This document shows positions 5,872 through 13,912 of a stretch of 64,000 nucleotides of DNA, piece by piece. The stretch covers positions 1-64,000 of the forward strand of contig NZ_LATD01000028.1 in the NCBI RefSeq assembly GCF_000981895.1, in the 5' to 3' direction. The notes beneath the pieces are model-generated. The model did not search any database, was not told the DNA's origin, and was given only the letters and a program-made list of their open reading frames with translations. A program made the position numbers and the translations under genes. This DNA is from Streptomyces odonnellii (GTDB lineage: Bacteria > Actinomycetota > Actinomycetes > Streptomycetales > Streptomycetaceae). Every line of letters begins with the position of its first letter. Within the stretch, counting starts at the first letter, position 1.

Positions 5872-7422
5872 CTAGTCGAGATAGTCGCGCAGAACCTGCG
5901 AACGCGACGGGTGGCGCAGCTTCGACATGGTCTTCGACTCGATCTGCCGGATCCGCTCCCGCGTCACGCCGTAGACCTTGCCGATCTCGTCCAGCGTCTT
6001 GGGCTGGCCGTCCGTGAGGCCGAAGCGCATGGAGACCACGCCCGCCTCACGCTCGGAGAGGGTGTCGAGGACCGAGTGCAGCTGCTCCTGGAGAAGCGTG
6101 AAGCTCACCGCGTCGGCCGGGACGACCGCCTCGGAGTCCTCGATCAGGTCTCCGAACTCGCTGTCGCCGTCCTCGCCCAGCGGGGTGTGCAGCGAGATCG
6201 GCTCACGGCCGTACTTCTGGACCTCGATGACCTTCTCGGGGGTCATGTCGAGTTCCTTGGCCAGCTCCTCCGGGGTGGGCTCGCGACCCAGGTCCTGAAG
6301 CATCTGGCGCTGCACACGCGCGAGCTTGTTGATGACCTCGACCATGTGCACCGGGATACGGATGGTGCGCGCCTGGTCGGCCATGGCGCGGGTGATCGCC
6401 TGCCGGATCCACCAGGTGGCGTACGTGGAGAACTTGTAGCCCTTGGTGTAGTCGAACTTCTCGACCGCGCGGATCAGACCGAGGTTGCCCTCCTGGATCA
6501 GGTCCAGGAAGAGCATGCCGCGGCCGGTGTACCGCTTGGCCAGCGAGACCACGAGCCGGAGGTTGGCCTCCAGCAGATGGTTCTTGGCGCGGCGGCCGTC
6601 CTCGGCGATGATCTCCAGCTCACGCTTGAGCTTGGGCGCGAGCTTGTCTGAGTTGGCCAGCTTGTCCTCGGCGAAGAGCCCGGCCTCGATGCGCTTGGCG
6701 AGTTCGACCTCCTGCTCGGCGTTGAGGAGCGGGACCTTGCCGATCTGCTTCAGATAGTCCTTGACCGGGTCGGCGGTGGCACCGGCGACGGCGACCTGCT
6801 GGGCCGGCGCGTCGTCCTCGTCGTCGTCGGAGAGGACGAAGCCCTTGTTCTCGCCCTCGGTCTCCTCCTCCTCGACCTTGCCGCCCTGGATCTCATCGGT
6901 CGGCTCTTCGCCGTCCGGGGCCTCGTCGGCGTCCTTCTTGCCCGTGGCCTTCTTGGCGGTCGTCTTCTTGGCGGCGGTCTTCTTGACCGTCGCCTTCTTG
7001 GCCACGGTCTTCTTCGCGGCGGTCTTCTTCGCGGGTACGGCGGCCTCGTCGGCAGCCGTGTCCACGCTCTCCACCACGGGAGCGGCGGTGGCTGCCGCGA
7101 CGGTCTTCGCCGTGGCCGTCTTGGTCGCGACAGTCTTGGTGGCGGTGCGCTTGACCGGGCTCTTCGCTGCGACGCTCTTACGGGTGCGCTTGGGCGACTC
7201 CGCGGCACTGACCATCAGCGTCACACCCTCTTCCTCGAGGATCTGGTTGAGGCTGCGCAGAACATTCTTCCACTGGGTTGGCGGAATCTGGTCGGCCTCG
7301 AAGGCCCGACGCACGTCATCGCCGGCGATCTGCCCATCAGCCTTTCCCCGCTCGATGAGCGCCATCACAGACTCGGACTCGGCGATCTCCGGCGGGAGCG
7401 TACGGGATGTGCTGGCCGACAC
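5872..7422 (-). CDS. hrdB: Principal RNA polymerase sigma factor HrdB (RpoD)
   Basis: 516 residues, group 1 sigma-70. The N-terminal region 1.1 ([18 protein letters not shown]...) is followed by a long Lys/Ala/Thr-rich low-complexity stretch (residues ~80-170) and an acidic patch, typical of streptomycete HrdB. Then come region 1.2 ([16 protein letters not shown]), region 2 with its -10 recognition helix ([14 protein letters not shown]), region 3, and region 4 with the -35-binding helix-turn-helix ([20 protein letters not shown]). The GTG start at 7422 is chosen because AGAGG lies just upstream and because the start [15 protein letters not shown] matches the start I recall for S. coelicolor HrdB. 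The TTG two codons earlier is less likely. Confidence 0.97.
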
Positions 7423-7763
7423 GAACAACCTCTCGGAACGATGGAAACGGCTTCCGGCCCCGCCCAGGATCGGGCCGGAGCCGACGACCGTCGGCTGGGG
7501 ATGTGCCGACGGCGCGGGCTAGGACCTCAGAGGGTGAATACAGCGCCACGCACGGCGGTCGTATTCCCTCCTCGGCTGTCACCTCTTAGGTCATCGCCCT
7601 GCCTCAAGGAGTGTTACGCCCATTCCACGTGGCCCGAGTCACACCCCATTTGCGACAAAGCACACAGAAGCGGGATCTAGGGCCTCACAATCGCGTCGCC
7701 GGACCCCCCGGGTCCGGCGACACACGATGCGTACATCCCCGTACGTCCTGGTCCTGGCGGCGG
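7423..7763 (-). other. hrdB upstream region
   Basis: 341 bp between hrdB and whiH, which share a strand. It holds the whiH terminator (7695-7721) and the hrdB leader and promoters. In Streptomyces hrdB expression is known to depend largely on the ECF sigma factor ShbA. Candidate boxes such as GGAAT at 7626-7622 (reverse strand) are visible but lack a partner at the correct distance, so no promoter is called. Confidence 0.5.
7695..7721 (-). terminator. Terminator downstream of whiH
   Basis: 12-bp perfect stem GTCGCCGGACCC / GGGTCCGGCGAC with a 3-base loop, 43 bases past the whiH stop; it separates whiH from hrdB. Confidence 0.65.
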
Positions 7764-8651
7764 TCAGTGCTCGCGCGGCGCGGGCACGACGCGCTCCACA
7801 TCCGGCTGGACCGTGAGCAGTTGGCGCATGGCCGACTCCGCGGCGTGCGCGTCGCCGGAGGCGAGGGCGTCGGTGATCCGGGCGTGGTGAGCGAGCGAAG
7901 CCTCGGTGGGACGGTCGCATCCGGTGACCGGACCGCCGGAGACCTGGAGGGCGGCGGAGACGATGCCGGAGAGGTGCTCCAGCATGCGGTTGCCGGCGAG
8001 CTGGATCAGCAGGGAGTGATATTCGGCGTCCGCGCGGGCGAAGGTGATCGAGTCGCCCTGGGCCAGGGAGTGGCCCATGATCTCGACCATCTCGGCGAGC
8101 CGCTGCTGCACCTCCGTCCGTCCGTGGCCGGCGGCCAGCCGCGCGGCGAGGGGCTCGATCGTCCAGCGCAGCTCGCTCAGCTCACGGCGCTGGTCGTCGC
8201 GCTGCGGCCCGAAGGCGCGCCACTCGATGATGTCGGGGTCCAGCAGATTCCAGTCGCTCACCGGGCGGACGCGCGTACCCACATTGGGCCGGGCGCTCAC
8301 GAGGCCCTTGGCCTCGAGAACGCGCAGCGACTCCCGCACCACCGTGCGGGAGACCTCGAAGCGCTGGCCGATCTCCTCCGGTACGAGCGGCCGGTCGGCG
8401 CCCAGGTCTCCGGAGACGATCATCTGGCCGAGCTGCTGGACGAGTTGGCCGTGCAGTCCGCGGCCGCGGCTGCTCGCCGTACGCCGTCCCACCCGGCCCA
8501 GATCGGTGTCGGCGCCCTCCCAGACGGGAGCTGCCGCGCGGTCGGCGCCTGGCGCCTCCGCGAAGGGGTAGCGGTCGAGTTCACCCGGGTCGGCGAGGCC
8601 CGGCTCGACGGAACGGGCGGCGGTCATCATGGTGTGCGCAAGGGTACTCAC
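7764..8651 (-). CDS. whiH: Sporulation regulator WhiH (GntR/FadR family)
   Basis: 295 residues. The N-terminal ~85 residues are a poorly ordered, charged extension. A GntR winged helix follows, with EEIGQRFEVSRTVVRESLRVLEAKGLV as the recognition region, and then an all-helical FCD ligand-binding domain with DAEYHSLL and HHARITDAL, positions that often hold a metal or carboxylate ligand. WhiH of S. coelicolor is a GntR-type factor needed for sporulation septation and lies next to hrdB, so position and family agree. The GTG at 8651 follows AAAGGA at slightly short spacing; an ATG at 8627 is an alternative start. Confidence 0.85.
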   Translation of the reverse strand: MSTLAHTMMTAARSVEPGLADPGELDRYPFAEAPGADRAAAPVWEGADTDLGRVGRRTASSRGRGLHGQLVQQLGQMIVSGDLGADRPLVPEEIGQRFEVSRTVVRESLRVLEAKGLVSARPNVGTRVRPVSDWNLLDPDIIEWRAFGPQRDDQRRELSELRWTIEPLAARLAAGHGRTEVQQRLAEMVEIMGHSLAQGDSITFARADAEYHSLLIQLAGNRMLEHLSGIVSAALQVSGGPVTGCDRPTEASLAHHARITDALASGDAHAAESAMRQLLTVQPDVERVVPAPREH

Positions 8652-8811
8652 GCATCCTTTGTCGGCGTTGCTTCCACGAGCCTTGAGGTCTTTGGTGAAA
8701 AGCACACGAAAGGGTGATCGGCGCTCGCCCCTCGATTGACGCCTTATCGGAAAGAAGCGGGCTTTCTCAGGGGAGTTGTGAGCAGGAAGGCACGCTCCGG
8801 TCGCTCCGCGA

Positions 8812-10761
8812 TCACCAACGGGCCCTGCGGCGAAGGCCGGTGAGCAGATACGCGCAGAGAAGGACCGACACCGACAGGACCAGCGCGGCGGCGAGCGGCC
8901 GGGCGAGGAGCCCCGCCACGGCCGTCAGCCAGTGGTCGGCGCGGGTGGGCCACTGGAGCCACGCCAGTTCACGGAGCCTGGCCGGGAGTCCGGCCGTCGA
9001 ACGCGCGGACGGGCCCGCGAACGCCGTCCGCAACAGCGGTACGGCCAGGGTCGGTACGGCAACGACGACGGCCACTCCGGCGACGGTGACGCGGAAGACC
9101 CCGGCGCCGAGGAGCCCGGCCCAGGCACAGCCGACGGCCAGCCCGGCCCACCCGGCACCCAGCGCGGGCCAGTTGTCCGGTACGGGCGCGGCGGCATGGC
9201 CGTACACGAGGCGCAGCGCGGCGCCGTCGACCGCCACCACCAGGAAGGCGAGGATCAGGGCCGAGGCGGCGGTCACCGCGAGCTTGGCGAGGAGCAGGGC
9301 GAGACGGCGGGGGACGGTGCCCCGGGCGCCGGCGAGCGCGGGATAGCGGAATTCGTCGCCGAAGGTGAGCGCGCCGAGCAGTCCGGCGCCGAGCACGGCG
9401 GGCGGCAGCGGCAGGATCGCGGGCCAGGCCACCAGCAGCCTGTGCGGCGGAGTCCCGCCGGCGCGGGCGAGGAACAGGGCGAGGAGAACGGACACGAGGA
9501 CGACCGCGGCCACGATCAGGGGTGTCGTACGGATCCCGAACATGCGGTGGAGTTCGTAGCGCAACGGCCTGAGCGGACTGCGGACCGGACGCGGTGACAG
9601 CGGCGGCACCGGGCGTGGCAGGGGCCCCGGGCCGTCGGACGCGGGTCCGGGCGTGGACGTGGACGTGGACGTGGAGGCGGTCGCGGAGTTGGTGACGGGG
9701 TTGGTCCGGGGAGCGGCCCGGAGTTCGGCGGGCGGGGCGATCACCGCCCGGGTCGGTGCCGTGTCCGCCTCGGAGGCCGGAGCGGGAACGGTGCCACTGC
9801 CCTGGCCCGACGCGGGCAGCGAGACCGGCCGGGGAAGCGGAATGGGCGCGAGGGCGGCTGCGAGGGCGGGATGGTGAACGGGCTCCGGTCCGGTGTCCCC
9901 GAACTCGTCGGCGAGCTGATGGACGAGGACGCCGTGGCGGAAGGCGGTCTCACCGATCTCGGGGCAGCTGCTGCCGTAGACGGTGAGCCGGCTGCCCGCC
10001 TCGGCGACCACTTCGACCGAGCGCCGCTCCGCGCGGGCCTCGCGGCTCAGCGCGTCGGCGAGGCGCGCGGCGTGCGGTGTCCTGACCGCGACGCGCGGAC
10101 GCAGTCTGGTACGCGCGAACTCCGCGCCGTCCTGGTCCGCGACCAGGCGGCCGTCGTCGATGGTGACGACATGATCGGCGGTACGGGCGGCCTCCTTGGG
10201 GTCGCTGGTCGTGTAGAGAACGGTGCCGCCCCGGGCCGCATGGGCGCGGAGCAGCCCGAACAGCCAGGTGCTCTCACGCAACGAGAGACCTGCGGACGGC
10301 GCGTCGAGCAGCAGCGCGTGCGGGTCGCCCAACAGCGCGGTGGCGAGCCCGAGTCTGCGGTCCATGCCGAGCGAGAGCGTGCCGAGCCGTTCGCCGCGCA
10401 GTCCGTCGAGGCCCACGGCACCGAGGAGTTCGTCGGCGCGCGCGGCGGGGACGCCCGCCGCGGCGCCGAGCATTCTGAGCTGACCTCTGACGGTCCGTCC
10501 GGGATGGCCGGGCACAGCACCGAGGAGCACCCCGACCTCGCGCGCCGGGTGGGCGACGCGATGGAGCGGCAGGCCGCGGAAGTAGGTGATCCCACGGCCG
10601 GGTTGGAGTTCGAGCATCAGCCTGAGGGCGGTGGTCTTGCCCGCGCCGGAGGCACCGAGCAGCGCGGTGACGGAGCCGGACCGGGCCTCGAAGGTCAGAT
10701 CGTCCACGGCGGAGGTGAGGTCTCGACGGGGGGTGCTGGTCAGTCCGATGGCCTGGAGCAT
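8812..10761 (-). CDS. ABC transporter: fused ATPase and permease, degenerate ATPase motifs
   Basis: 649 residues. Residues ~1-240 form an ABC ATPase with an intact Walker A (GASGAGKTT, ~36-44). The signature is LSLGM instead of LSGGQ (~129-133), Walker B reads LLLDAPSAG with Ala154 in place of the catalytic Glu, and the switch-loop His is Ser (YTTSDPKEA, ~186). A proline/threonine-rich linker (~310-380) leads to a C-terminal membrane domain with about six helices, resembling ABC-2-type permeases. The ATG at 10761 fits the ATPase domain start; an in-frame ATG at 10905 lies further upstream without support. Substrate unknown. It could be a regulatory or low-turnover transporter. Confidence 0.8.
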   Translation of the reverse strand: MLQAIGLTSTPRRDLTSAVDDLTFEARSGSVTALLGASGAGKTTALRLMLELQPGRGITYFRGLPLHRVAHPAREVGVLLGAVPGHPGRTVRGQLRMLGAAAGVPAARADELLGAVGLDGLRGERLGTLSLGMDRRLGLATALLGDPHALLLDAPSAGLSLRESTWLFGLLRAHAARGGTVLYTTSDPKEAARTADHVVTIDDGRLVADQDGAEFARTRLRPRVAVRTPHAARLADALSREARAERRSVEVVAEAGSRLTVYGSSCPEIGETAFRHGVLVHQLADEFGDTGPEPVHHPALAAALAPIPLPRPVSLPASGQGSGTVPAPASEADTAPTRAVIAPPAELRAAPRTNPVTNSATASTSTSTSTPGPASDGPGPLPRPVPPLSPRPVRSPLRPLRYELHRMFGIRTTPLIVAAVVLVSVLLALFLARAGGTPPHRLLVAWPAILPLPPAVLGAGLLGALTFGDEFRYPALAGARGTVPRRLALLLAKLAVTAASALILAFLVVAVDGAALRLVYGHAAAPVPDNWPALGAGWAGLAVGCAWAGLLGAGVFRVTVAGVAVVVAVPTLAVPLLRTAFAGPSARSTAGLPARLRELAWLQWPTRADHWLTAVAGLLARPLAAALVLSVSVLLCAYLLTGLRRRARW

Positions 10762-11000
10762 CGCTTCTCTCGCGGGGAGGTGAGACCGCTCGGCGGCAGG
10801 GGCTAGTACCGCAGCAAGATAACTCGACATGTCCGACTTGTGACGCATGAGGCGCACCCGGGTGTCCCGGTGTCCGCGCTTCGCGTCCAACCACGCGGCT
10901 TCCACCGGAACCTGAACTGACGGCCCGTCAGGCCGACGCGTGCCCGCTCTGCCTGTTCCGTCCGTTCTGTCTGGCGTGTCGGTGCCGCCCGTACCGCAGG

Positions 11001-11765
11001 TCAGACCTCGGGGCGCAGCATCGGCGGATTCAGTACGGTCGCCCCGCCAGCCCGGAAGAGCTGGGCCGGCCTGCCGCCCTGCCGGGTGGTGGTCCCCCCG
11101 GACGGGACCAGGAAGCCCGGGGTGCCCGTCACTTTGCGGTGGAAGTTACGGGGATCCAGCGCCACGCCCCACACCGCCTCGTACACCCTGCGCAGCTCGC
11201 CGACGGTGAACTCGGGCGGGCAGAACGCGGTGGCGAGCGAGGAGTACTCGATCTTGGAGCGGGCCCGCTCCACCCCGTCCGCGAGGATCCGGGCGTGGTC
11301 GAAGGCGAGCTGGGCGGGCTGTTCGTCCTCGCGGGCGAAACCACCCTCCTGGTTGAGCAGCTCCGCGACGGGAGCCCAGCGCGCGCTGTTGGCATCGCCG
11401 CCGGCCCTGGGCGCGGGAAGGTCGGGCGAGAGCGCGAGATGCGCCACGCTGACCACCCGCATCCGGGGGTCCCTCCCGGGCTCCCCATAGGTCGCGAGCT
11501 GTTCGAGATGAGCCCCGTTACCGGGCTCCGGGGAGAGTGGGTCGTGTGCGCAGAGCCCGGTCTCCTCGGACAGTTCCCGTGCCGCCGCCTCGGCCAGATC
11601 CTCGTCGCCCCGGACAAAGCCGCCGGGCAGCGCCCACCGCCCCTGGAAGGGCGGCTCCCCGCGCCGTACGACCAGCGCGCAGAGCGCGTGGCGCCGGACG
11701 GTGAGCACGACCAGGTCGACGGTGACAGCGAAAGCCGGGAAGGCCGACGGGTCGTAGGGCGACAT
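11001..11765 (-). CDS. NUDIX hydrolase / NrtR-type transcriptional regulator
   Basis: 254 residues in two parts. Residues ~1-140 are a NUDIX domain with the sequence GGFVRGDEDLAEAAARELSEETG, which keeps the E-X3-RELSEETG core of the NUDIX box. The C-terminal part (EFTVGELRRVYEAVWGVALDPRNFHRKV...) is a winged helix as in NrtR, the repressor of NAD metabolism genes that senses ADP-ribose. Because the catalytic Glu residues remain, it may keep hydrolase activity. The ATG at 11765 has only a weak ribosome-binding site. No NAD biosynthesis gene is adjacent, so the target genes are unknown. Confidence 0.8.
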   Translation of the reverse strand: MSPYDPSAFPAFAVTVDLVVLTVRRHALCALVVRRGEPPFQGRWALPGGFVRGDEDLAEAAARELSEETGLCAHDPLSPEPGNGAHLEQLATYGEPGRDPRMRVVSVAHLALSPDLPAPRAGGDANSARWAPVAELLNQEGGFAREDEQPAQLAFDHARILADGVERARSKIEYSSLATAFCPPEFTVGELRRVYEAVWGVALDPRNFHRKVTGTPGFLVPSGGTTTRQGGRPAQLFRAGGATVLNPPMLRPEV

Positions 11766-11778
11766 GCGATGATCATAG

Positions 11779-11793
11779 TCGTCTGCTTGACGA
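11779..11793. promoter_or_regulatory. Possible operator of the NUDIX regulator
   Basis: Inverted repeat TCGTC-TGCTT-GACGA, ending 14 bases before the start codon of the NrtR-like gene. NrtR proteins commonly autoregulate through short palindromes. The arms are only 5 bp, so this is a weak call. Confidence 0.3.
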
Positions 11794-11884
11794 TAAACAC
11801 TCCTTGTGTCATTAACCCAGGGGCACTTCTTTGCCCTTTCTCCGATCTTCGAGTTCACGGACCGGCGGGACCCGCCGAGCCGTC

Positions 11885-13912
11885 TCACACCCCGAGCTGG
11901 AGCCCGTCGGCCGCTTCCTCGACCATGCCGAGCCCGAGCCGGCTGACCCGTACGGAGAAGGGCTCCCCCGCGACCCGCAGGCCGCTGAGCTGGACCGCTC
12001 CGAGCGGGGCGGTGCGCATCGGGTGCAGCGCGACCGTGCCACCGGGGGCGTCGGGACGGATACCGACGAGCGCGGTGAGCACATGGATCCCCGCCGCCGC
12101 GGCCACCGCGGCGGGCCGGCACGCAGCGGGATGCGGCACGGGCGCACCCCCGGCGGTCCGCTGCTCCCCCGCGTACATCTCCGGCAGCCGGTGGCCGAAA
12201 GCCTCCGCCGCGTCCAGCAGCCCGCGCAGCAGCGAGACGGCTTCCTTCTCGTGCCCGGCCGCCGCCAGACCTCCGATCGCGACGGCCGTCTCATGCACCC
12301 GCACCGCCCCGGCCCGGTGGCCGAACGGGTTGTGGCCCGGCTCCTTGGCCGCGAGTCCGCGCAGCCCCCAGCCGGTGTCGAGCGCGGGACTGCCGAGCAG
12401 CCGGGCCACCTGTTCGGTCCTGGCGCCGTCGAGGAGACCCGGGGCCGCTCTCCCCTCGCCGAGCAGCCCGGTGTCCAGGAGATGCGCGGAGTTGGCGCTC
12501 GGATGCGGAAGGAGCCGTCCGTCGGAGAGACGCGCCGCGGCCGGCCGGCCCCCCGCCCGGTCGTCGAACCAGAACGTCTCGCCGAACCGCCGCCGCAGCG
12601 CCTCCGCCCACTCCCGCCAGCCGTCGGCCCCCGGCCGGCCGCAGGCGTCCAGCAGATCCGCCCCGAGCAGGGCCGCCCGGTGTGCGTGGGCCTGGGTCTC
12701 GACGCGCTGCGGCCCGGTGGGGCCCGGCTCCCCCAGCAGATCACCGTCGTCCGAGGCGGCACGCAGCCACTGGAGACAACGCTCCGCGGCCGGGAGCAGC
12801 TCGGCCAGCTCCTTTTCGGGGAGCCCCCAACGGCGTGCCTCCGCGAGGACGACGGGAAAGGCGAGGGTCGCCTCGACGCCGGTGCAGCTCGGCGGCAGAT
12901 GAGGACCGGCGTCGCGCAGCGGTCCGCGGAGCCGCCCGAAGTCCCTTCCCTGCTCCCTGAACTGCGTGCGGGCGAGGGTACGGAGCGTCGCCGCGGCCAG
13001 CCGGGTGCCGAGCGGGAGCGCCATCCGTACAGCCCAGAGCGCTTCCGCAGCGGGCGGTCCGCAGCGCCAAGGCACGCCTGCCGCGGGATGGAGGTCCGCG
13101 GGGCCGCCGGGACCCCGGAGCAGCAGCCCCCGCAGATCGCCGAGGCTCGCGGCGAACAGCGGCCGCACCCGGAGGTCGTCCCCCTCGGCCGCCGCCGCGG
13201 GCAGGGGATCGCTCCCCGTCCGGCCCGTGGGCCGCACGGGCCGGTCGGAGCGGATCCGCAGTTCGATGGTGTGGGCGGCTCCGGGCCCCAGCTCCACTTC
13301 CCAGCGCAGCAGTCCCGCCGAGGCCAGCGAGTCCTGCGGGGCCGGGGACGCGGTGACGACGGCGTACCGGCCGTCCGGCGCCGACCAGCGAAGACCCGCC
13401 GCATGGACACCTGCGGGCAGTTCGGGGCCCGCCCGGCCGGCGCCGATCGCGGCCAGCTCCGCGAGATCGGTGCCGAAGGAGATCTCCACCGGAATCCTGC
13501 GCGGCCGCCGGGCGGAGCTGTGCAGGGTGATCCGCTCGGTGCCGTCGGCGTCCCGCAGCCGCTCGACACTGATCTCCGGATCGGGCCCGGCGTCCTCGGG
13601 GGTACGGACCACCGCCCGGAACCGCGCCCGGTCGGCGGCGACGAGCCTGCCCTGCAGCGGGATCGGGTCCCGTCCCGCGATCCGCAGCCGGCACCGGGAG
13701 AGCAGGCGCCGGCCCGACTGGTAGAAGCCCTCGATCCCCTCGCCGGTGAGCTGTCCGTGCTCGGCCGAGACCGCGAGGCAGGGCAGCGCGACGCACAGCA
13801 GAGCGTGGTGCACGACGGGCGGCCCTGCGGGCGGCGCGGCCCGCCTCCCCGCCGGCCCGGCGGGGGTGATACGCGGCGGCTCGCTGTTCGGGGAGGGGGC
13901 GGTGAGGGCCAT
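11885..13912 (-). CDS. Glycogen-debranching-like protein (amylo-alpha-1,6-glucosidase family)
   Basis: 675 residues. The N-terminal ~250 residues form a beta-rich region of the type called glycogen debranching enzyme N-terminal bis-like, with the EGIEGFYQSGRRLLSRCRLRIAG segment characteristic of that family. The rest is an (alpha/alpha)-barrel of the trehalase/glucoamylase kind with ETQAHAHRAALLGADLLDACGR, SANSAHLLDTGLL, WGLRGLA and HPAACRPAAVAAAA. The family acts on alpha-glucans or related saccharides, but the substrate of actinobacterial members is not settled, and I cannot assign catalytic acids. It is cytoplasmic, with no signal peptide. The ribosome-binding site at the ATG (13912) is weak. 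Confidence 0.75.
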   Translation of the reverse strand: MALTAPSPNSEPPRITPAGPAGRRAAPPAGPPVVHHALLCVALPCLAVSAEHGQLTGEGIEGFYQSGRRLLSRCRLRIAGRDPIPLQGRLVAADRARFRAVVRTPEDAGPDPEISVERLRDADGTERITLHSSARRPRRIPVEISFGTDLAELAAIGAGRAGPELPAGVHAAGLRWSAPDGRYAVVTASPAPQDSLASAGLLRWEVELGPGAAHTIELRIRSDRPVRPTGRTGSDPLPAAAAEGDDLRVRPLFAASLGDLRGLLLRGPGGPADLHPAAGVPWRCGPPAAEALWAVRMALPLGTRLAAATLRTLARTQFREQGRDFGRLRGPLRDAGPHLPPSCTGVEATLAFPVVLAEARRWGLPEKELAELLPAAERCLQWLRAASDDGDLLGEPGPTGPQRVETQAHAHRAALLGADLLDACGRPGADGWREWAEALRRRFGETFWFDDRAGGRPAAARLSDGRLLPHPSANSAHLLDTGLLGEGRAAPGLLDGARTEQVARLLGSPALDTGWGLRGLAAKEPGHNPFGHRAGAVRVHETAVAIGGLAAAGHEKEAVSLLRGLLDAAEAFGHRLPEMYAGEQRTAGGAPVPHPAACRPAAVAAAAGIHVLTALVGIRPDAPGGTVALHPMRTAPLGAVQLSGLRVAGEPFSVRVSRLGLGMVEEAADGLQLGV

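Follow-up and report, generated by a model that had tools for sequence, protein, structure and literature searches.

Stepwise loss of catalytic motifs in a conserved ABC ATPase-permease fusion encoded beside whiH in Streptomyces

Introduction

Among ABC proteins, degenerate ATP sites have mostly been described in heterodimers whose other site is good. In PMC7756269 they are described as normally belonging to heterodimers, and the degenerate site of ABCG5/G8 is said to carry Arg in place of the Walker A Lys. The same source reports that a D-loop mutation made the exporter ABCB2/B3 a nucleotide-gated facilitator and that D-loop changes did not affect transport by ABCG5/G8. Among open-licence PMC papers, a search for homodimeric bacterial ABC proteins in which both sites are degenerate turned up none on the ABC family described here, in which the sole NBD of the locus is degenerate.

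By gene number, SCO5818 is probably the S. coelicolor orthologue of this gene, because SCO5819 is WhiH and SCO5820 is HrdB in PMC3897704. SCO5818 is placed among the S. coelicolor membrane glycoproteins, with 5 predicted helices, in PMC6593405; since three of the glycoproteins given there are very likely intracellular, single assignments need care. A SCO5818 variant is recorded for a mutant in PMC10624881, as one change whose effect was not assayed there.

Results

Domain architecture and structure models

The window is the whole stretch of Streptomyces odonnellii DNA that was analysed, 64,000 nucleotides in length. The gene under study and its parts are located as follows:

8812..10761, minus strand: ABC gene, 649 aa, composed of NBD, accessory domain, linker and probable ABC2-type permease (ORF, translation)
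10102..10761, minus strand: ABC ATPase domain (NBD), residues 1-220 (Pfam ABC_tran, AlphaFold model, fold matches)
10708..10743, minus strand: A-loop region, residues 7-18, with Pro11 in place of the aromatic residue
10630..10656, minus strand: Walker A GASGAGKTT, residues 36-44, kept
10489..10536, minus strand: Q-loop region, residues 76-91, with Gly81 at the Gln/Glu/Asp position
10363..10377, minus strand: signature LSLGM (residues 129-133), a normal form in the subfamily
10282..10317, minus strand: Walker B and D-loop, residues 149-160, with Asp153 retained, Ala154 in place of Glu and Ser160 in place of the D-loop Asp
10186..10221, minus strand: switch region, residues 181-192, with Ser186 in place of the His
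9892..10101, minus strand: C-terminal accessory domain of the NBD, residues 221-290 (AlphaFold model, paralogue alignment)
9601..9891, minus strand: disordered linker rich in Pro/Ala/Gly/Ser/Thr, residues 291-387 (pLDDT <50 over most of it)
8815..9600, minus strand: permease domain, residues 388-649, an elbow helix and ~6 membrane helices, probably of the ABC2 (type V exporter) fold (models, fold matches)
10813..10839, minus strand: conserved 27-base element ahead of the ABC gene, probably a promoter or operator

The ORF and its translation agree in coordinates and frame with the original prediction of an ABC fusion at 8812-10761. The frame starts with ATG at 10761 and stops at 8812-8814. An alternative in-frame GTG at 10905 would give 697 aa and would cross the conserved element at 10813-10839. 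Because M1 is invariant across alignment A1 (72 rows of ABC orthologues, L068, L074, L078, L079, L081-L084 and L086 being left out), the ATG was taken as the start of the orthologues. Residues 20-156 scored 66.5 bits with Pfam ABC_tran against a cut-off of 25, which places the domain in that family. The best NCBIfam model was drrA, far below its cut-off: the DrrA equivalog TIGR01188 gave 101.6 bits against 312.45, so the protein falls outside this equivalog. The PADLOC match mad3 (59 bits, residues 120-203) was rejected as generic ABC similarity, no single stretch passing alone. The region of residues 221-290 also aligns in the two nearest paralogues, and the linker varies from 22 to 238 residues among 78 rows.

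In the AlphaFold model of the whole protein (pLDDT 78.5, pTM 0.59), the NBD matched many ABC NBDs with Foldseek and VIA. Since NBDs filled both lists, the permease was modelled alone (pLDDT 79.9, pTM 0.78), and its top matches were NosY, PmtCD, ABCG and ABCA. The best Foldseek E-value was 0.037, to chain Y of NosDFYL, with none under 0.001; the VIA Z-score of 11.9 to PmtCD is below the level advised for helical folds, and all 50 listed rows were ABC transporters. Pfam assigned 0 families to the window permease, and among the 60 members of permease alignment A2 (drawn from 75 available sequences, the window and 74 others) it gave weak matches to ABC2_membrane_4 in 3 and to ABC2_membrane_3 in 2. 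Residues E470, R472, P474, P484, R485, R486 and K493 are invariant in A1 and surround the loop that joins helices 2 and 3, presumably the coupling loop of the fold.

Catalytic motifs in orthologues and paralogues

Relatives were found with six peptide patterns from the window protein, none of which spans a catalytic position. The best 80 of the 274 relatives were taken, and near relatives are therefore over-represented. With the window they make 81 rows; 78 of the 80 loci are titled Streptomyces, one Streptosporangium (L061) and one Streptomycetaceae bacterium (L077). Long frames are intact in 78 of the 81 rows, the window included; the frame is broken early in L081 and L086, and L074 ends at the contig end.

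Walker A had been described as intact, which is right for the window and for all rows except one (Lys in 80/81); Arg replaces the Lys in L035, and also in L124 and L126, both from one sister genus. The Walker B Asp is present in 81/81 rows. The changes of the Walker B Glu (LLLDAPSAG, Ala154) and of the switch His (TTSDPKEA, Ser186) are present as first quoted, so that the window has Ala and Ser where a catalytically competent site has Glu and His or Gln. Across the orthologues these two substitutions fared differently. Position 154 is the normal Glu in 58 rows, Ala in 13 (window included), Asp in 9 and Thr in 1. The His is lost family-wide: the switch position holds 12 residue types, with His in L063 alone (1/81), and with an entropy rank of about 287/289 it is among the most variable positions of the NBD.

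Further changes, beyond the three of the original prediction, were found in the Q-loop, D-loop and A-loop. The D-loop position is Ser in 71 rows, Ala in 6, Thr in 3, Gly in 1 and Asp in 0; at the Q-loop position all 81 rows have Gly. At the A-loop position Pro (70), Ser (6), Arg (4) and Thr (1) occur, and an aromatic residue in 0/81. The signature Gly132 is kept in 81/81 rows, with Ser (63) or Pro (18) at position 130. We also observed at residues 154 and 156 (window 10294-10302) that Ser156 stands solely beside Ala154 or Thr154 (12/12 Ser rows); the pairing is found mostly in one clade and may reflect shared descent.

As a same-genome control, 27 ABC loci were chosen non-randomly from 102 matches, and 26 of them could be aligned. 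The Walker B Glu is present in 26/26 and the D-loop Asp in 25/26, and the switch residue is His in 21 and Gln in 5. Because none of the 26 paralogues lacks the Glu or has anything but His or Gln at the switch, the two substitutions of the window are not background. The Q-loop residue is Gln in 19, Glu in 4, Asp in 2 and Gly in 1 (L098, which carries Gln one position further on). The catalytic residues are present in these 26 paralogues and in 12 outgroup rows. LSLGM, which had been counted as a third degenerate motif, turned out to be ordinary: Leu occupies position 3 in 5/26 and Met position 5 in 12/26 paralogues, and 12/12 outgroup rows read [FY]SLGM.

Selection and conservation

The dN/dS ratio was 0.013-0.133 for the NBD (14 of 16 pairs computable, Ala-bearing pairs included) and 0.031-0.220 for the permease (16/16 pairs). 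For the neighbouring genes it was 0.019-0.062 (nudix gene, 8 of 10 pairs computable), 0.007-0.046 (whiH, 10/10), 0.011-0.078 (hrdB, 7 of 10 computable) and 0.032-0.254 (protease gene, 7 of 10 computable). Within the protein, conservation is highest in the NBD, whose mean identity to the window is 76% as against 59% for the permease. This analysis revealed that the NBD is under strong purifying selection. A pseudogene was rejected as the main reading on account of the low dN/dS.

Purifying selection would also be expected of an ordinary but slow homodimeric exporter, one that tolerates the changes and still hydrolyses ATP fast enough to be of use. The Glu retained in 58/81 rows fits such an exporter, as does the invariance in A1 of the coupling-loop residues E470, R472, P484, R485, R486 and K493. 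However, a single polypeptide combines four to five altered catalytic positions, the switch position drifts freely and the Glu drifts too, and we consider this explanation unlikely. Against the reading preferred below, position 154 is Glu in 58 rows and Asp in 9, so that some hydrolysis may remain in many species.

Phylogeny and stepwise loss of motifs

The Streptomyces tree was built from 78 rows; L074, L081 and L086 were left out of it and of the identity figures. In this tree, Glu versus not-Glu requires 9 changes, 6 of them forced by starred branches; the Walker B Glu was thus lost repeatedly, at least six times on starred branches alone. Ala154 requires 5 changes (4 forced) and Asp154 requires 4 (3 forced). 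A loss in this strain only was rejected, as Ala occurs in 13/78 tree rows and the window falls within a starred set of nine Ala rows. In the same tree L061, whose record bears the title Streptosporangium nondiastaticum, clusters closely with L057 from Streptomyces klenkii; the record is possibly mislabelled.

The rooted tree holds 67 rows, including 40 of the 81 orthologue rows together with L109 and L110, and carries warnings for long branches (par_L089, L128, L118, L117, L115) and for odd composition in five outgroup rows. The locus rows form one clade (100/99). The loss of His falls on one branch, and the position needs 2 changes because L063 has His. The loss of the D-loop Asp takes 1 change, the Glu position 13 and the Lys position 2.

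Across the class, the whole model matched in only 3 of 40 genomes, all of the same genus as the window. Some match at 1e-40 was obtained in 30/40, mostly to the NBD only, and the nine aligned loci with such matches (L111-L119) have canonical motifs. Within the family, matches at 1e-80 occur in 16/25 genomes and 9/17 genera. The near-basal loci L129-L132, from two genera, keep the A-loop Tyr, the Glu, the D-loop Asp and the His; their Q position is Gly, and their signature reads LSAGA or LSTGA. In L128 the His is lost and Asp stands for Glu, with the D-loop Asp retained. In L124-L127 both the His and the D-loop Asp are lost and the A-loop is still aromatic; two of these four loci have Arg in Walker A and two have Ala for Glu. 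In L120-L123 the A-loop aromatic residue is gone as well. The decay was therefore stepwise, from a near-canonical base through the loss of His and then of the D-loop Asp to the loss of the A-loop aromatic residue together with NBD-permease fusion, and losses of Glu and Lys are scattered along the series. Near the Q position, Gln occurs in L127 and in the diverged L162, and Asp in L163; the Q-loop change is therefore not uniform outside Streptomyces. The NBD fold and most nucleotide-holding residues are kept, and the residues of hydrolysis and site communication were lost one by one. Slow or absent hydrolysis, as originally proposed, is a fair reading of these losses.

Locus order, fusion and gene loss

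The neighbours of the ABC gene and a motif before whiH are:

11001..12122, minus strand: NrtR-type nudix regulator, upstream neighbour
7764..8705, minus strand: GntR/FCD regulator, WhiH by position
5872..7428, minus strand: principal sigma factor HrdB
8744..8750, minus strand: CCGATAA before whiH, exact in 29/79 rows

The regulator at 7764..8705 is presumably WhiH. Among the 80 loci, the order nudix-ABC-whiH-hrdB was seen with the nudix gene in 79, whiH in 78 and hrdB in 77, the misses lying at contig ends. It recurs in 12 of the 13 sister-genus loci with the gene, and the 13th (L141) is cut by a contig end. The nudix gene adjoins the ABC gene wherever the contig extends that far; the start given for it probably lies too far upstream, and in most loci the alignment of its orthologues sets in at about residue 104-109.

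A single frame encodes NBD and permease in L133-L136, as in Streptomyces. The genes are separate in L137-L140, because the match to the permease falls past the stop codon or in a different frame. The NBD frame likewise closes in L142-L145; tblastn gave no permease match there, though 0.8-1.3 kb is left before whiH, and these loci probably carry separate permease genes as well. It follows from these frame states that the fusion coincides with the clade without the A-loop aromatic residue. In the sister genera the ancestral unit consists of a single NBD gene with a single permease gene after it, an arrangement that suggests a homodimer. It argues against a functional exporter half whose canonical ABC partner is encoded elsewhere and whose signature would serve the good site of that partner. 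Such a pairing would agree with the rule that degenerate sites normally belong to heterodimers (PMC7756269), with the retained signature (Gly132 throughout, Ser or Pro at position 130) and with the two near canonical paralogues found in tandem on contig C13 (NBD identity 38-40%). No partner NBD gene was found at the locus, however, either in the window or in related loci, and we regard the pairing as improbable.

Nine family genomes lack a 1e-80 match, and whiH is present in all of them. Two hold a diverged copy, with Asp (L162) or Ala (L163) for Glu. No NBD was found between the nudix gene and whiH in 7/25 family genomes (L155-L161, six genera), where the nudix match is 160-264 nt from whiH and both whiH and hrdB are retained. 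This absence refers to the locus; the rest of these genomes was covered by the 1e-80 search.

Upstream signals and the relation to whiH

The element at 10813-10839 stands 51 nt before the ABC start. The sequence AAGTCSGAHATRTMGCGTTATCTTGCT was found with at most 3 mismatches in 62/80 loci and at most 5 in 66/80, once each and on the same strand; in 36 control loci there was none at up to 7 mismatches. In 22 family loci a single site with 7 mismatches was found, at the matching place in L133, and the element is missing where the ABC gene is lost. Its TTATCTT part could be a -10 box, and no standard -35 was seen.

The ABC gene could also be a slowly decaying relic that retains little function and is heading for loss. 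The stepwise decay on the rooted tree, the seven family genomes without the NBD and the early frame breaks in L081 and L086 would agree with this. Nevertheless, dN/dS is well below 0.25 in every computed pair, the long frames stay open in 78/81 rows, the upstream element is conserved in 66/80 loci, and SCO5818 was detected as a membrane glycoprotein (PMC6593405). A relic is thus very unlikely.

The gap 8706-8811 before whiH contains CCGATAA and an invariant-looking CGATCACCCTTTCGTGTG up to the start. The former resembles the -10 of sigma-WhiG. In the genomes that lack the ABC gene, CGATCACCCTTTCGTGTG is kept in 7/7 and CGATAA in 6/7. whiH thus has conserved upstream signals of its own, and the ABC-whiH gap varies from 18 to 714 nt across loci. 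The original prediction had called the fused permease and the position beside whiH and hrdB unusual and had suggested that the protein may be a regulator or sensor and not a pump. A developmental regulator or sensor acting with WhiH or HrdB would explain the order kept in the sister-genus loci and, as far as contigs reach, in Streptomyces. Yet whiH and hrdB persist without the ABC gene in 7/25 genomes, whiH has its own signals, the gap between the two genes varies in length, and open-licence PMC papers gave no phenotype for the ABC gene next to whiH. This role is most improbable; position alone ties the ABC gene to whiH.

Discussion

Most of the motor parts have been lost and yet the gene is well preserved, which suggests a role other than ordinary pumping. 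We lean, with slightly better than even confidence, towards a half-size ABC2 (type V) protein with two identical ATP-holding sites and very slow or no hydrolysis, in which binding latches or gates the membrane part. Both sites of a putative homodimer would hold the nucleotide through Walker A, the Walker B Asp and the signature Gly, and hydrolysis would be very slow or absent. Binding of ATP would close the dimer, which would open again only on release of the nucleotide. Nucleotide binding might then gate the membrane part as a facilitator, lock or scaffold with no pump cycle; the gating and any substrate are a guess. Because the A-loop aromatic residue is lost, and the Walker A Lys in 3 rows, ATP binding is itself open to some doubt on sequence grounds. 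The ABCB2/B3 facilitator is a precedent for the gating; the ABCG5/G8 transport that D-loop changes did not affect (both PMC7756269) and the absence of the gene from the locus in 7/25 family genomes count against the preferred reading. It is possible, though doubtful, that a two-gene drug-type ABC2 exporter became a fused, non-hydrolysing, homodimeric ATP-binding switch that gates a pathway or signals the energy state.

If this last reading is true, the protein is a bacterial ABC transporter with both sites degenerate, and the sister genera preserve the intermediate steps. The stages of the decay are represented in living relatives: canonical outgroups, near-canonical loci, loci with the His lost, with the D-loop lost, fused, with Glu or Lys lost, and genomes with the gene deleted. 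They make the question of ABC function without hydrolysis testable in harmless Streptomyces strains of the laboratory.

The protein resembles actinobacterial ABC2 exporters of the DrrA/BcrA type in the SLGM signature and the accessory domain. Those exporters are two-gene systems, whereas here NBD and permease are fused; in addition, the Q-loop, D-loop, A-loop and switch His are changed in the window family and the Glu is often lost. ABCG half-transporters share the one-chain order of NBD and then permease, which in the window protein is probably of type V like theirs, and ABCG25 aligned over window residues 1-642 (Z 23.4, 415 residues). ABCG2-like homodimers keep their catalytic residues, whereas both sites of the window protein would be degenerate. 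The degenerate sites of ABCG5/G8, CFTR and TAP are like the window family in the loss of Glu and His, and the Walker A Lys to Arg change reported for ABCG5/G8 (PMC7756269) is seen in L035, L124 and L126. However, ABCG5/G8, CFTR and TAP combine a defective site with a functional one, whereas the only NBD at the window locus is degenerate, with its signature kept.
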